From Soonwooa buanensis (GTDB lineage Bacteria; Bacteroidota; Bacteroidia; Flavobacteriales; Weeksellaceae), in assembly GCF_900167905.1 (NCBI RefSeq), contig NZ_FUYZ01000004.1, positions 1 to 64,000 of the forward strand: a stretch of DNA of 64,000 nt, read 5' to 3'. Both the position numbers and the translations under genes were made by a program. This document shows, piece by piece, positions 39,753 to 46,544 of this stretch. The notes under the pieces are model-generated. The model ran no database searches, was not told the DNA's origin, and was given only the letters and a program-made list of their open reading frames with translations. Positions within the stretch are counted from its first letter, which is position 1. Each line of letters opens with the position of its first letter.

Positions 39753-40901
39753 TTATTCTGTTGGGAAATCGGGCCTTCTCATTTTAAATTTAGTTCCTGA
39801 CATTGATTCTAAAAATAAAACTAAAGCACGGGTTTCTTCTTTTGATAAATCTAATTTTTTGAGTAGTGGATCTGTTACGGGATAAAGTGGATCTTTTTGT
39901 TTTTGCTCAGGTTTCGGATCAATCATGTGCATACCGCTGTTGTACATGTTAACAATACCTTCTAGATCGTCAAAAAGTCCGTTGTGCATCCAAGGTCTTG
40001 TCAATAGTAAATCACGAAGTTGCGGTGTTTTGAATTTACCAATATCTTCTGCTTTTTTTGTTGTGGTGTAAAGTCCTAGATCTTCGTATTTTCTTTTGTA
40101 ATAAGTTAGTCCAATGTTGTGGAACTGCTCATCCGAAAGATATTGTCCGTTGTGACAATTCATACAACGAGCTTTGGTTCGGAAAATGTGCATGCCGTAG
40201 ATTTCTTGATCGCTTAACGCATCGTATTTCCCATCAAGAAATTGATCAAAACGACTTGGCTGACTTTTTACAGTTTTTTGAAACTCCGCTAAGGCCTTTG
40301 TAATGCGATCAAAGTTGATTTTTTCGTCACCATAAGCATCAACGAAAAGCTTTTTGTAGCCTTTTATTTTTTCTAATTTGTCAGCTAGTTGAGGCGGTTC
40401 CATATTCATCTCATGGTGTGCGGCAATCGGCGAAATAGCTTGATCTTCTAATGTTTGCGAACGGCCATCCCAAAAGAAAGATTGGCGTTGAGCAATATTA
40501 AGAATGCTAATTGTGTTGCGACTTCCTTCCAGATGGTCGTTGCCAAGCGACACGCGACGACGGTCTGTCCAGCCTAATTCTGGATCATGACAAGTGCTGC
40601 AAGAGATTTGGTTGCTTTTGGAAAGTTTAGGATCGAAGAAAAGCATTTTGCCCAATACAACAATTGGTTTTTCTTGCTCTTTGAAGTAGTTAGAATCTCT
40701 TTTAATAGAAGAAAATTCTTTCCAAGAGACACCTTCTTCGATGTTGGGTTTTGGCCATTTCGAAATTGCTTTTTTGTAGCTGTTAACGATATCTTGAAAA
40801 CTTGGATCTTGGATTTCTAAAAGTTCACGGTTAACTTTAGGCGCAAAACTCAACAAAAACATCACGATTGTTGCCAATCCCAAAAGCATTATTTTCTTCA
40901 T
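39753..40901 (-). CDS. Di-haem cytochrome c peroxidase (MauG/CcpA-like)
   Basis: A 382-residue periplasmic enzyme. A hydrophobic N-terminus (1-20) is a signal peptide or anchor. Two CxxCH sites, CSTCH at 101-105 and CMNCH at 246-250, bind the haems. GRSQTLEDQA and RPWMHNGLFDDLEGIVNMYNSG are typical of the family. Members reduce hydrogen peroxide or, as in MauG, oxidise a partner protein. It is the last gene of the four-gene operon with a TonB receptor, a DUF4876 lipoprotein and a beta-barrel, 3 nt after the barrel gene. This suggests it oxidises or processes the transported substrate rather than only detoxifying peroxide. Confidence 0.92.
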   Translation of the reverse strand: MKKIMLLGLATIVMFLLSFAPKVNRELLEIQDPSFQDIVNSYKKAISKWPKPNIEEGVSWKEFSSIKRDSNYFKEQEKPIVVLGKMLFFDPKLSKSNQISCSTCHDPELGWTDRRRVSLGNDHLEGSRNTISILNIAQRQSFFWDGRSQTLEDQAISPIAAHHEMNMEPPQLADKLEKIKGYKKLFVDAYGDEKINFDRITKALAEFQKTVKSQPSRFDQFLDGKYDALSDQEIYGMHIFRTKARCMNCHNGQYLSDEQFHNIGLTYYKRKYEDLGLYTTTKKAEDIGKFKTPQLRDLLLTRPWMHNGLFDDLEGIVNMYNSGMHMIDPKPEQKQKDPLYPVTDPLLKKLDLSKEETRALVLFLESMSGTKFKMRRPDFPTE

Positions 40902-40904
40902 GAT

Positions 40905-42422
40905 CTAAAATGTAATTCCTAAAATTAATTGTGCAAAGTTATTGCTTTTTTTCTGCATCTTATATTGTTGCCACGCGCCTTCGACGTAGAAAGCTGGTAG
41001 TTTTGATAGTTTTATGTCGTAACGAATTTTTGCACCATAGTTTGTGATGTCACTTGCCAGATAATTATAATCGGATATTAACCAATCGAGGATATTCGGA
41101 CGAAGATCGATTGAGATCGCATTGGTCGTTTTAAGAATGTTTTTAGAATAAAAATTGGTCGAAAAACTTATAACCTGATTGTTCAAAATTTCTTGTTTGT
41201 AAAAAGCATCAAATCCTAAAGTATAATTTTTAAATTTTTGCCCACTGAATGGATACATACGCTGCTCAATCGTTTCTTGATATTGAAAATGAGGTGTAGC
41301 GCCAACGACAAACTTGTCCGAATTGTATTGATAAAGCACTTTTACAGTTGTGATGTAATCTTCTTTTTTATAGGTTTTTCTTTTATAAATCTGCTCGATC
41401 ATTTCGGTATGGTTGGTGTAGCCATATTCAGAGCCGATTTTTATAAAAGCTTGATAATTGGCGACGATACCAAAACTGTGATGATTGAAGTTTAAGAATT
41501 TTGCAGCTTCGATTTGATAATGTTTTTTGTCCAGATCCGAAATGTCAAAATAACGATTGGATGGCGTTACACTTTTTTGATTTTTAGCTTCAGAAACAAA
41601 ACCTGTGATGTAAAAAGGATTTTTAGAATTTCTAAAAATTTGTCCGCCTAACTTGTAGCCAAATTCTTCGTAAATGGCTGCAGGACTTCCTCCATTGAAA
41701 AAATAATTAGAAAACCCGAAACCCGTCATTTGATACATTAATGCTTGTCCCAGATCGCTAACAAATTTTATCGATGTGTTTTGTGTATACTTGTTAAGAT
41801 TTCCGAAAAGTCCAATTTCGAAATCTTTGTAAAAACGGTAATTGGCTCCAAGATTAATATTAAGATCAGACGTTGTGCTTTTCTGACGCGGATCACGATT
41901 GCGAGAACCCAACTGCGCAAGATAGCTCGCTTCTAATCCCAAAGTCCAACGATCTATTTTTTGAGAAATTCCGCCCGAAAATTGATAACGCTCCAACTTG
42001 GTGTCGCCACCCGCAGAATCGGCAATGCTGTATGGCGCAATGCGATCATAGTCGAGGTTTTCGTTCCATTTTACAGAAGTAAGTTTTAGATTTTGATAGC
42101 TTGCATTTCCCCAAATGCTTCGATTTTTGTTTTGTTTTTTATAAGAATTGACTTTTATACTAAGTCCATTTTGGCCAGAACCATCTTGTTGTCGGTAGAT
42201 ATTTCGTTTTTCGTTTTCATAACCGATATTAAAATCTGAAAATGAAAAGTTACTATAATCCGACATCGTTGCCGGATTATAGTAAAGATTATTCTGAAGT
42301 TGTCGTTTAATACTATATTGTTGTTCAATCTTAGGAAACAAACGAATGCTGTCTTGGGCTTTCAGACTTGTTATTCCGAAAGTAAAAATGATAAAACTAG
42401 ATAGTATGTGTCGTAACTTCAT
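40905..42422 (-). CDS. DUF6850-type outer membrane beta-barrel protein
   Basis: A 505-residue protein with a signal peptide ending near SLKAQ. The rest alternates polar and aromatic residues in short beta strands and ends with ILGITF, a terminal Phe as in outer-membrane barrels. SRNRDPRQKSTTSDLNINLGANYRF resembles the DUF6850 family seen in similar Bacteroidota operons. The DUF4876 gene ends 11 nt upstream and the peroxidase gene begins 3 nt downstream. It has no TonB plug, so it may be a passive pore or an assembly partner. The family name is less sure than the barrel prediction. Confidence 0.72.
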   Translation of the reverse strand: MKLRHILSSFIIFTFGITSLKAQDSIRLFPKIEQQYSIKRQLQNNLYYNPATMSDYSNFSFSDFNIGYENEKRNIYRQQDGSGQNGLSIKVNSYKKQNKNRSIWGNASYQNLKLTSVKWNENLDYDRIAPYSIADSAGGDTKLERYQFSGGISQKIDRWTLGLEASYLAQLGSRNRDPRQKSTTSDLNINLGANYRFYKDFEIGLFGNLNKYTQNTSIKFVSDLGQALMYQMTGFGFSNYFFNGGSPAAIYEEFGYKLGGQIFRNSKNPFYITGFVSEAKNQKSVTPSNRYFDISDLDKKHYQIEAAKFLNFNHHSFGIVANYQAFIKIGSEYGYTNHTEMIEQIYKRKTYKKEDYITTVKVLYQYNSDKFVVGATPHFQYQETIEQRMYPFSGQKFKNYTLGFDAFYKQEILNNQVISFSTNFYSKNILKTTNAISIDLRPNILDWLISDYNYLASDITNYGAKIRYDIKLSKLPAFYVEGAWQQYKMQKKSNNFAQLILGITF

Positions 42423-42433
42423 ATTTAAAAATA

Positions 42434-43669
42434 TTAATGAACAATACCGTTTTTAAGGCTTGGTTCAGCGTTTTTAATAAAATCTTCTGTTGAATTGTTG
42501 GTGTCTTTGTATATGTTTTTTCCAGTATTTGTTTTACCCAAAACTTTACGACGAACAGATTTTCCCAAACGATTTGGGTCGTTCCAAAATTCGCCAACGC
42601 CAGTCCATCCAGAGTCGATTGTTGTTGACGTTAGAATATGTTGAAATTTGTCAACGACACTATTATTAAATCCATCTACAATCCAAGAATTTGGGATTGC
42701 GTAAGCGCTCTTGTTGGTGATGTTACCAGCTGCGTTGGTGTAAGAATAAGTGTATTTATGATTTTGCAAAAAGTTTTCGGCATTTTCACCAGTTGGGAAG
42801 CGCGCGATAACATAAGACTCAACGCCGCTGCTGTGTAGATAAATCATATCGTCAAACGCCATCGAAGTATAAATTATCTTAACATTTGGGACTGATGGAT
42901 TATCAACTTGTGCTAATGTTGCATTTTTAATTGAAGGAAATTCGAAGTCAGCATTTTGAAGATTGAAAGCTGTACTTGTATTGGCGTTATGATTAACAGC
43001 ATTGTCGGCAATCACTATGAAGTCACCAGGATTAACAGGATGATTAGTTCCAGAACCAGGAAGTTGCATCATGCCTTTGATTGCAAATTTTTCGTTTGGA
43101 GTATATGGCGTCACGTTGTTGTTAACACTTGTCAAAAACTCAGATTGACCAATGATAAGTCCGTCAGCGTACAAGATTTTGTCGGTGTTATTGACAAGTT
43201 TGAAATAACGGCTAGAATTGTAATTTTTCCCTTCAGGCGTTTTTACACCCGTGTAAAATACTTCTTCAATGATAAAATCGCTACCGAATTGTTTAACCAA
43301 CAACGGAATAGAAAGTGCGCTAGAAGCAGTTTTTATATCAGCCGTCATTGTAGCTGCAACATCGACAGTTTCGCCAGAAGCAGTTACCACGCTACCATTA
43401 ACTGTAATTTTGTAAGAACCATAAGCTAATTCTAAGTTCAGGATATTGTTATTTTCAACCAATTTTTTTACAAGGCTTCCTGTATTGTTTTCAAGAATTT
43501 CAACTTCTAAAGATTTGTAATTAGAAATTTCAGTTCCTAAAAATGTTAGATTAACTGTGCTTTTTTGACTTTGTTCAAAACCAAAATCATCGTCGTCCTT
43601 TGCGCATGATACAATGGTCGAGCTAATCGTTAGTCCCACAAGACCGAGTAGTAAAAGCTTTTTTTTCAT
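42434..43669 (-). CDS. DUF4876 lipoprotein, probably surface exposed
   Basis: A 411-residue lipoprotein. The signal peptide ends with a lipobox at TIVSC, Cys22, followed by AKDDDDFGFE. An acidic stretch after a Lys resembles the lipoprotein export signal (LES) that sends lipoproteins to the surface in Flavobacteriia. An N-terminal Ig-like beta domain (about 35-130) precedes the DUF4876 core, with EEVFYTGVKTPEGKNY, SRYFKLVNNTDKILYADGLIIG and MQLPGSGTNHPVNPGDFIVIADNA. It is likely a partner of the TonB receptor encoded 53 nt upstream, by analogy with SusD or HmuY. The ligand is unknown. Confidence 0.85.
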   Translation of the reverse strand: MKKKLLLLGLVGLTISSTIVSCAKDDDDFGFEQSQKSTVNLTFLGTEISNYKSLEVEILENNTGSLVKKLVENNNILNLELAYGSYKITVNGSVVTASGETVDVAATMTADIKTASSALSIPLLVKQFGSDFIIEEVFYTGVKTPEGKNYNSSRYFKLVNNTDKILYADGLIIGQSEFLTSVNNNVTPYTPNEKFAIKGMMQLPGSGTNHPVNPGDFIVIADNAVNHNANTSTAFNLQNADFEFPSIKNATLAQVDNPSVPNVKIIYTSMAFDDMIYLHSSGVESYVIARFPTGENAENFLQNHKYTYSYTNAAGNITNKSAYAIPNSWIVDGFNNSVVDKFQHILTSTTIDSGWTGVGEFWNDPNRLGKSVRRKVLGKTNTGKNIYKDTNNSTEDFIKNAEPSLKNGIVH

Positions 43670-43689
43670 AAGTTTAAAAATTAGAGATA

Positions 43690-43728
43690 TTGTTATTTAG
43701 AATTGTTATTTAGAATTGTTATTTAGAA
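43690..43728. repeat. Three tandem 13-bp repeats at the receptor stop codon
   Basis: TTGTTATTTAGAA occurs three times in a row (43690-43702, 43703-43715, 43716-43728). The stop codon of the TonB receptor lies in the last copy on its own strand. The unit fills most of the gap between receptor and DUF4876 gene. Confidence 0.9.
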
Positions 43729-46461
43729 ATTGTAATTAAGTTCCATCCCAAAATAGGGTGTCGAAAGGTTTTTTCTGTCGATCTTGATGCCGTTCATATA
43801 ATAGGGTTGCGCGTAACCAAAAAGTTTATTAACAAACATTGAGGTTCTCAAAGCTTTGTAGATTTTTTTTGTCACTTTAAAATTAGCGTTCAAGGTATAA
43901 GTGTATTTGGTTTCTAAATTATCCGTTTTCGACACATCTCGAATTAGCCATTGTTTGTAAATGTCGGTCTTGTCATTGTCCGTAAACTGGTGTATAACGC
44001 CGTCGATACCGTAATAAGAAGTCGGTTCTGCCATACGATGGTCACGTTTTCTGTGGTCAAAAATTGATCCTTGAAAAGATGCAGATATTGTTAAATCCAA
44101 ATTTTCTAAATAAGTGTCAACAAAGAAATTATAGTTGAGATTGGAGTTGACAAAGCCATCATCATTTTTATAAATGCCATAGTAAGGAAAATTACTACCG
44201 CCGATGGAAGTACTTGGCTTTTGGTGAACAGGGATTGTATTTCGGTATTCCGTGTGGAAATAGGCACCAGTTAAGGTAAATCTCGTATTAATACCGTCAA
44301 ATCTCGGTGAAGTATATCCGAATTCAATTCCTTTTTTTAGCGTTGCGCTACCGTTTTCGGTTAATGTGTAGCTCCCGAATTCTGAGATCATTTGATAAGG
44401 AATATTGGCAAGATTTGGTCCGTTATTCCAATCATTAATGTCGACAAAAGAGGCGTCGTATTTTTTGTAAGTATGCGTTGTAGTTTGTAATGTATTACGG
44501 AATCCGTTGGCCATTTCTTCCTGAAAATAGGTTACAAAAAATTCATGGTTTTTATAACTAAGATCAATTCTCGCTTCGTATTTTGTGTTTTTAGCAGCAG
44601 TTATATTTTTGTTTTCTAAAGATTGAACGTAAGTCATAAAGTTGACGTAGCGGAATCGTTCATCATTATGATAATAGTTGAGTTGCGTATAATCCAAATA
44701 TTTTGAGTTGGGATAAAGCATCAATAAGGTCGGTTGTTTGTAGAATTGACCATAACCTAATGTTAAATCAGCTTTTAGGGCGTGGTTACCAATAAATATT
44801 TTTGGAAGACCATATTGAAAATTTAATCTTGGTTCAAAAAATAATTGTTTGCTAATGCTATAACTTTCATCCACGCCCAATAACTTAGACGCACGTAGAC
44901 CTGCATAAAGATTCAGTTTATGATCATCGATTTGATAAGACATTTGGTCTCCAACAAAGGCTGCCATCACTTGCCAAGCAGGGATGTCATCGTATGCACG
45001 CGGTCGCACACTCATCGTAGCAGTTGGTGGTGTAAGAGGATTATATTGCTGACCTTTTCCAAAATTTTTAGAGAAACGCCAATCCAGTCCAAGTTCATAT
45101 TGATGGAGTAGAAGACCAGACTTTTTAACTCCATTTAGTTGTAAAAGAGCTGACAAATCGAGAGGTTTACCATCTGTATAGAAATCTGAAATATATTTTA
45201 TCTGAGGAAAAAAACCTACATTTTCACCTTGGATTGTGGCAATAGAAACAGATCGAGGACCAGATTGTTGAACAAGTTTCGTTTGTTCAATCTTATCAAA
45301 GCCTTGACGGATCGCCGTGTTGAAAGTCAATTTATTAAAAAAGTTTTCTTTGCCTAAGATATAAACGAAATTATTAGTTAAACTCAATCGATTATTCGAG
45401 TTTTTGTAAACATCAACAGGCGCGTAACCAGTGTCGGGATCATTTTTTTCTTTGTCAATATTACTAGAAAAATCAATATTAGAACGCCATTCGAGATGTT
45501 TGTTCCATAACATTGTTTTTAATCGAGAACGTACAGATCCCGTTAAGCGTTGATAGTTTTCGTAGGAATCAGTTGGATCTACCTTTGCATCTAGCAAGTC
45601 CATACTAGCCGTCATTTGCCAGTTTTGTTTTAAAGCAAAACCTTTACTAATGTAATATTGTTTACTAAAACCATCTGCTTTGAAACGAGCTTGTAAAGGC
45701 GTTTTACCAATTTTTCTATCAATTTTTATAACGCCAGTTGTCAGATCACCATAAGATGCAGAAGGAATCCCGCGGATAATTTCAACTCTTTCGATGTCGT
45801 TGGTGGAGATGGTTCGCATGTCAACGCCAATGCCAGCAGAAGCCTTGTATTTTGGACCATCTAAAAATTGACTGTCATTAAGAGATAACTGCATATCCGC
45901 ATTTGTATTCCAAATATTATTGTCGATAATAAATTGTGTCCCAAGAGCGCTTGTGTTGTAACTGCTTGGTGCAGAATCGTTTTCTCGTAACAAAACTCTG
46001 TTAGAAGACGTCAAGCTTGGCGTTTTTGCTAATCCTCCTGGTACAAGTTCCATAATGTCAGCAAAGCTCGATGGTTGAAGATGTTCCATGGCTTTTGTCG
46101 TGATGACGGATTTACTTGTTAAGCCTTTTCCTTCTTTTGCAGTAACAATAACTTCTTGAATATTATTTTCGGAAAGAAGTTTTATTGTTAATGTTTGATG
46201 TTGTTTAGCATGAAATTTTAAAACCCTTTCTTGGTAGGATGGATGCTTAACAACAATAGAATATGAGTGGTCTTTCTCAACTAAAAAATTAGTTTCACCA
46301 TTAGGATTTGTTGACTGTTGCTTGTTTTCTGAAACTTTTACAGTTGCATTTTCTAAGCTTTTATTTTTGTTGTCAGTCACTATAATTTTTAGCTCAATTT
46401 TTTGAGCTACAACAACAACCGGAAACAAAATAAGTATTAAAAAACTAAAAAATCTTAACAC
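43723..46461 (-). CDS. TonB-dependent receptor, operon with DUF4876, GTG start
   Basis: A 912-residue outer membrane receptor beginning at GTG 46461; upstream in frame lies a stop and no ATG fits. A signal peptide ends near VVVVAQ. A carboxypeptidase-D-like domain (about 22-105) carries LENATVKVSENKQQSTNPNGETNF. The plug (about 110-230) has ELVPGGLAKT and NDIERVEIIRGIPSASYGDLTTGVIKI. The barrel ends ELNYNF. It imports an unknown ligand using TonB energy. The operon partners are a likely surface lipoprotein, a beta-barrel and a di-haem peroxidase. A Fur-like palindrome and a -7 box lie upstream. Confidence 0.92.
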   Translation of the reverse strand: MLRFFSFLILILFPVVVVAQKIELKIIVTDNKNKSLENATVKVSENKQQSTNPNGETNFLVEKDHSYSIVVKHPSYQERVLKFHAKQHQTLTIKLLSENNIQEVIVTAKEGKGLTSKSVITTKAMEHLQPSSFADIMELVPGGLAKTPSLTSSNRVLLRENDSAPSSYNTSALGTQFIIDNNIWNTNADMQLSLNDSQFLDGPKYKASAGIGVDMRTISTNDIERVEIIRGIPSASYGDLTTGVIKIDRKIGKTPLQARFKADGFSKQYYISKGFALKQNWQMTASMDLLDAKVDPTDSYENYQRLTGSVRSRLKTMLWNKHLEWRSNIDFSSNIDKEKNDPDTGYAPVDVYKNSNNRLSLTNNFVYILGKENFFNKLTFNTAIRQGFDKIEQTKLVQQSGPRSVSIATIQGENVGFFPQIKYISDFYTDGKPLDLSALLQLNGVKKSGLLLHQYELGLDWRFSKNFGKGQQYNPLTPPTATMSVRPRAYDDIPAWQVMAAFVGDQMSYQIDDHKLNLYAGLRASKLLGVDESYSISKQLFFEPRLNFQYGLPKIFIGNHALKADLTLGYGQFYKQPTLLMLYPNSKYLDYTQLNYYHNDERFRYVNFMTYVQSLENKNITAAKNTKYEARIDLSYKNHEFFVTYFQEEMANGFRNTLQTTTHTYKKYDASFVDINDWNNGPNLANIPYQMISEFGSYTLTENGSATLKKGIEFGYTSPRFDGINTRFTLTGAYFHTEYRNTIPVHQKPSTSIGGSNFPYYGIYKNDDGFVNSNLNYNFFVDTYLENLDLTISASFQGSIFDHRKRDHRMAEPTSYYGIDGVIHQFTDNDKTDIYKQWLIRDVSKTDNLETKYTYTLNANFKVTKKIYKALRTSMFVNKLFGYAQPYYMNGIKIDRKNLSTPYFGMELNYNF

Positions 46462-46490
46462 GCTTATTTTTAATAATTATAAATAAACGA

Positions 46491-46544
46491 CAAAAGTAAG
46501 AAGTTGTTAGTTTAAATAAAAATTAATTTAGAATAAATTTAAAT
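46491..46544 (-). promoter_or_regulatory. Receptor operon promoter with Fur-like palindrome
   Basis: On the minus strand TACTTTTG (46491-46498) fits the -7 box. ATTTAGA-ATAAA-TTTAAAT (46526-46544) lies just upstream of the -33 region. Seven of nine paired positions agree, and it resembles Flavobacteria Fur-type sites (ATTTAGA...TCTAAAT). AT-rich surroundings raise the chance of a false match. Confidence 0.4.

Follow-up and report, generated by a model that had tools for sequence, protein, structure and literature searches.

A conserved TonB receptor-DUF4876-DUF6850 operon with a MauG-type di-haem gene, a probable Fur-regulated iron-uptake system in Soonwooa buanensis

The minus strand of the 64,000-nucleotide stretch of the Soonwooa buanensis genome analysed here (the window) carries between 46461 and 39753 a set of four genes which, to judge from sequence and genomic context, is probably a conserved, Fur-regulated operon for iron uptake. 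These genes encode, in order, a TonB-dependent receptor, a DUF4876 lipoprotein, a DUF6850 outer-membrane barrel and a MauG/CcP-type di-haem protein (Table 1), and are separated in the list of open reading frames by gaps of 53, 11 and 3 nt, a spacing from which they are predicted to be cotranscribed. This gene content and the gaps had been described in an earlier note on this DNA and are confirmed by the open reading frames and Pfam families; the envelope location that it had proposed for the products is likewise supported. Comparative data support the operon itself, its conservation, a Fur-box footprint upstream of it, and the assignment of its products to families and folds. The regulatory evidence, a Fur-box-like site, was missed in the earlier note; for the receptor/DUF4876 core, a strong response to iron in three Bacteroidales is already on record (PMC10434189).

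Table 1. Genes and candidate regulatory features of the operon, by position in the window
Feature	Position	Strand	Details
TonB-dependent receptor	43723..46461	-	912 aa, GTG start; Pfam Plug 2.8e-08, CarbopepD_reg_2 6.6e-06
DUF4876 lipoprotein	42434..43669	-	411 aa; Pfam PF16215 E 5.8e-46
DUF6850 outer-membrane barrel	40905..42422	-	505 aa; Pfam PF21012 E 2.5e-76
MauG/CcP-type di-haem protein	39753..40901	-	382 aa; Pfam CCP_MauG 2.9e-53
Fur-box-like operator ATTTAAATTTATTCTAAAT	46526..46544	-	17/19 to Riemerella Fur box ATTTAGAATTATTCTAAAT; 65 nt before receptor start
Putative Bacteroidota -7 promoter element TACTTTTG	46491..46498	-	read from sequence; fits TAnnTTTG
16-bp hairpin in start of barrel gene	42250..42285	-	terminator-like scan; RNAfold z -3.8

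The 912-aa receptor bears an N-terminal carboxypeptidase-regulatory-like domain (Pfam). Comparison of its profile with solved structures yielded matches to N-terminal domains only and to no receptor barrel, so that its substrate cannot be read from homology. The receptor gene is directly followed by the DUF4876 lipoprotein gene, the arrangement that defines systems of the PG1019-22 / BT1938 type. Pfam detected neither a SusD-family match in the operon lipoprotein, as expected of a SusCD nutrient-uptake system, nor an HmuY partner gene in the operon, as expected of Hmu-type haem uptake. The lipobox cysteine of the DUF4876 protein (C22) is kept in relatives, and the acidic stretch KDDDD that comes after it resembles the surface-export signals of Bacteroidota. 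The AlphaFold2 model of this protein (pLDDT 90.5) matches 4Q1Z, the solved structure of BT_1938, with Z 29.4 across 351 residues and an rmsd of 13, the latter probably due to differing domain placement, and its N-terminal domain is modelled as a common transthyretin-like/pilin-like sandwich. In two Weeksellaceae a gene for an HmuY-like T9SS protein is inserted between the receptor and DUF4876 genes (L103:8563-9873 and L113:8968-10284). The inserted protein is 27% identical to the S. buanensis HmuY over a matched length that includes the sorting domain; its identification as HmuY was not retained, the similarity being only to the S. buanensis protein and below the Pfam HmuY threshold. The insertion, seen in only 2 loci, points weakly to haem. 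A literature search for DUF4876, DUF6850 and BT1938 brought up no study of their function.

Across 296 Bacteroidota genomes DUF4876 and DUF6850 (over the cut-off) were each found in 29, and both in 27 (Fisher 1e-33); within the family of S. buanensis, DUF4876 is present in 88 of 246 genomes. Examination of 125 distinct wide loci revealed a receptor gene beside DUF4876 in the same direction in 120 and a barrel gene in 122, the exceptions including several cut contigs or split genes. Recurring in nearly all these loci, the adjacency of the triad genes is not a product of chance. The earlier note had suggested a search for co-occurrence as a check on its proposal, and unlinked genes in relatives as evidence against it; DUF4876 and DUF6850 proved to be shared by 27 of 29 carriers, and the linkage held with one exception, a stand-alone di-haem gene in genome G002. 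This gene is 58% identical to the S. buanensis copy and has a Fur-box-like site of its own (2 mismatches), and the triad of the same genome is without a di-haem gene.

The position after the barrel gene differs between lineages. A di-haem gene is next in line in 71 of 81 distinct non-Bacteroidales loci and in 0 of 44 Bacteroidales-type loci, the two groups having been partly assigned by hand. Near the latter are found genes for M16 peptidases (13 loci), ABC proteins (8, with PepSY in 4), HEAT proteins (2) or small lipoproteins; in 16 loci no such gene was seen. This variability of the fourth gene implies that the receptor, lipoprotein and barrel form a phylum-wide core with an exchangeable last slot, the common theme of which may be periplasmic processing; the di-haem gene is not needed for the core, because the 44 Bacteroidales-type loci and 10 others have no adjacent copy. 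The M16 peptidases, of about 940 aa, lie near the DUF4876-barrel pair in Bacteroidales loci L170, L176, L183, L191, L196, L199 and others, and recall iron-protein processing of the FusC/PqqL type. Tandem DUF4876 genes were observed within single loci in L082, L083, L169 (Apibacter) and L152 (Capnocytophaga).

The AlphaFold2 model of the DUF6850 protein (pLDDT 92.5) displays 18 long strands and no plug domain, which bears out the second, plug-less barrel of the earlier note, and an N-terminal helical segment (residues 28-55) that could occupy the lumen. Structure comparisons returned general outer-membrane barrels only, with Z up to 18, an rmsd of 4-6 and roughly 10% identity, and were not taken to identify the fold. 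Close to its N-terminus the protein has a conserved NPAxM motif that recalls FadL-type hatches; kinship with FadL was set aside because the strand count differs. The start of the barrel gene also contains the hairpin listed in Table 1, which is present in a single copy in the S. buanensis genome and is kept in Weeksellaceae orthologues, with compensatory changes on both sides in 4 of 12 pairs and 13 covarying cells versus 2.8 in shuffles and 0-2 in slid controls. The level of pairing is biased because the sequences were chosen for a shared protein motif; such a choice does not account for the covariation, however, in which AAC, for instance, always goes with GGT. The hairpin is possibly an attenuator or mRNA-processing element and may set the ratio of receptor and lipoprotein to barrel and enzyme.

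The Fur-box-like site ATTTAAATTTATTCTAAAT sits slightly upstream of the putative -7 element TACTTTTG, TAnnTTTG being the -7 consensus of Bacteroidota, and its upstream end at 46544 coincides exactly with the outer limit that the earlier note had given to the operon. The reference motif is from the relative Riemerella. This Fur box, ATTTAGAATTATTCTAAAT, is backed by EMSA at several promoters (PMC5609570). The window contains 3 matches to the motif versus 0.21 expected. When the best site no more than 200 nt upstream of each gene was scored with at most 4 mismatches, a Fur-box-like site was recovered before 68 of 80 non-Bacteroidales orthologous receptors versus 24 of 591 neighbouring genes (Fisher 1.5e-59, the related loci not being independent), and the reversed control motif was recovered before 12 of the same 80 receptors. 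Upstream of 35 Bacteroidales orthologues the Riemerella-type motif was found in no case. Throughout the S. buanensis genome 43 matches were obtained at 3 mismatches versus 31 for the reversed control, which means that the motif alone is not selective and that the argument rests on its position and conservation. The genome encodes two FUR-family proteins, and other TonB receptors in it are also preceded by the motif. Two Fur-box-like sites lie between a divergent hmuR-like receptor gene and an HmuY-family T9SS gene (C11:272961-273010; L207, L217).

Relatives of the operon are known to respond to iron. At low iron PG1019-22 of Porphyromonas gingivalis are up 21- to 215-fold, and BT3625-33 and BT1933-39 of Bacteroides thetaiotaomicron 37- to 128-fold and 3.5- to 7.4-fold respectively, all three sets holding DUF4876 and receptor genes; in Porphyromonas, Prevotella and Bacteroides such DUF4876/receptor loci are described as iron-starvation-induced, with no substrate assigned (PMC10434189). 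Furthermore, an excess of hemin strongly represses a DUF4876 gene of P. gingivalis (PMC10470040), and PG1019 tops the list of periodontitis-induced genes in one study (PMC5807917). An iron-related uptake function is thus supported both by the conserved Fur-box footprint and by the published iron-starvation induction of relatives (PMC10434189). The statement of the earlier note that no characterised system has this gene content holds for function, but not for the receptor/DUF4876 core, which is published as iron-responsive in three Bacteroidales and for which the BT_1938 structure is solved.

The same note had proposed uptake coupled to redox processing; its uptake half is borne out as iron-related, and its redox half stays conjectural, the di-haem gene being an optional fourth module outside the universal core. 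The di-haem protein has two c-type haem motifs (CXXCH at residues 101 and 246) and is a clear member of the CCP_MauG family (PF03150; 181 bits versus a cut-off of 25.6). It covers nearly the full length of the MauG equivalog TIGR03791 and of the MbnH profile TIGR04039, scoring 228.9 bits versus a cut-off of 443.85 and 200.7 bits versus 362.85 respectively, and no MbnP partner is adjacent, its operon neighbours being the DUF6850 and DUF4876 proteins. Among solved structures its sequence is matched best by bacterial cytochrome c peroxidases (E 2e-48, PDB alignments), and the linkage to iron import makes a guard against Fenton chemistry plausible; the protein might accordingly be a protective peroxidase, which clears periplasmic H2O2 during iron import and leaves the ligand untouched. 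We consider this unlikely, since the axial Met that goes with the electron-transfer haem in classical bacterial cytochrome c peroxidases appears from the alignment to be replaced by Tyr320, conserved alongside W144 in the 73 operon homologues (Tyr320 in at least 95% of them), and an axial Tyr is a trait of the MauG/MbnH type. General detoxification would also leave unexplained the tight linkage to one receptor family and the existence of SusCD-linked homologues. The latter are MauG-type genes that end FecR-SusC-SusD-lipoprotein operons (L229:7918-16607, L231:506-9077 and L232:8096-16847; genomes G025, G021 and G170), in which the lipoprotein is of 487-492 aa and has no Pfam match. Taken with the Fur-box-bearing copy of G002, these homologues indicate that the MauG-type enzyme pairs repeatedly with TonB uptake.

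MauG matures methylamine dehydrogenase and MbnH matures MbnP, and the di-haem enzyme, as a member of the same superfamily, could in like manner mature the DUF4876 protein, the barrel or the receptor by Trp/Tyr oxidation. The neighbouring secreted DUF4876 lipoprotein has a well conserved Trp329, and MauG-type genes adjoin a lipoprotein in the SusCD operons too. Nevertheless, none of the Trp, Tyr, Cys, Met or His residues of the partners passed a 90%/40% cut-off for specificity to enzyme loci: receptor Y784 (89% vs 22%) just misses it, and W329 is found in 93% of DUF4876 proteins from loci with the enzyme vs 75% of those from loci without it. This lack of a redox-active residue specific to enzyme loci makes partner maturation less likely, and we hold it to be quite improbable. 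MbnH-like enzymes act in copper systems, and cobalamin has its own receptor-lipoprotein pairs, among them BtuB-BtuG, either of which could suggest a non-iron metal complex or cofactor as the cargo, with membership in the Fur regulon incidental. Such a cargo is very unlikely in view of the conserved Fur-box-like footprint, the response to iron and hemin published for relatives (PMC10434189, PMC10470040) and the HmuY-like insertion in L103/L113.

Hence, we favour, as fairly likely, a Fur-repressed iron-acquisition operon that combines surface capture, TonB import and oxidative processing of the ligand by the di-haem enzyme. Upon iron starvation Fur would release its site at 46526-46544, which would allow transcription of the four genes. 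Haem or a ferric complex would be captured as the iron-bearing ligand by the DUF4876 lipoprotein, which is probably exposed at the cell surface, and handed to the TonB-dependent receptor for import; the DUF6850 barrel would be an obligate partner and perhaps a channel through which a product or co-substrate passes. In the periplasm the MauG-type enzyme, driven by H2O2 or O2, would oxidise the imported ligand and so render its iron releasable; in other lineages peptidase or PepSY/ABC genes would take the last slot. We infer the substrate class, the surface capture, the role of the barrel and the action of the enzyme. As a tentative suggestion, the action of the enzyme could constitute a new route of iron release, in which peroxide or oxygen serves to break up or oxidise the iron-laden ligand in the periplasm after TonB import, in the place that related systems give to a peptidase. 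The enzyme would be a haem protein produced at the very time of iron shortage. The DUF4876 genes of gut and oral Bacteroidota rank with the most iron-induced ones, and the literature found assigns them no substrate or mechanism; the triad with its obligate DUF6850 protein and exchangeable last slot makes one testable system of scattered unknowns.

Like PG1019-PG1022, BT1938-39 and BT3625-33, the operon places a TonB receptor beside DUF4876 lipoprotein genes, and its DUF4876 protein matches 4Q1Z/BT_1938; unlike these, it includes a MauG-type gene (0/44 Bacteroidales-type loci) and a Riemerella-type Fur box (0/35). It is reminiscent of HmuR-HmuY and HfpR-HfpY in pairing a TonB receptor with a secreted or surface partner under predicted iron repression, and two of its relatives have the HmuY-like insert, but the S. 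buanensis operon is without HmuY and has an obligate second barrel and a di-haem enzyme. The latter shares with MauG and MbnH two CXXCH haem sites, an inter-haem Trp and a Tyr at the axial position, whereas it scores far below both cut-offs and its partners are an uptake triad rather than methylamine dehydrogenase or MbnP. FusABC and YddAB-PqqL import protein-borne iron with the aid of an M16 peptidase. Here too a TonB receptor is linked to a putative periplasmic processing enzyme, and 13 Bacteroidales-type DUF4876 loci do have an M16 peptidase; the S. buanensis operon differs in that a di-haem enzyme takes the place of the peptidase and a lipoprotein and a barrel are also encoded.
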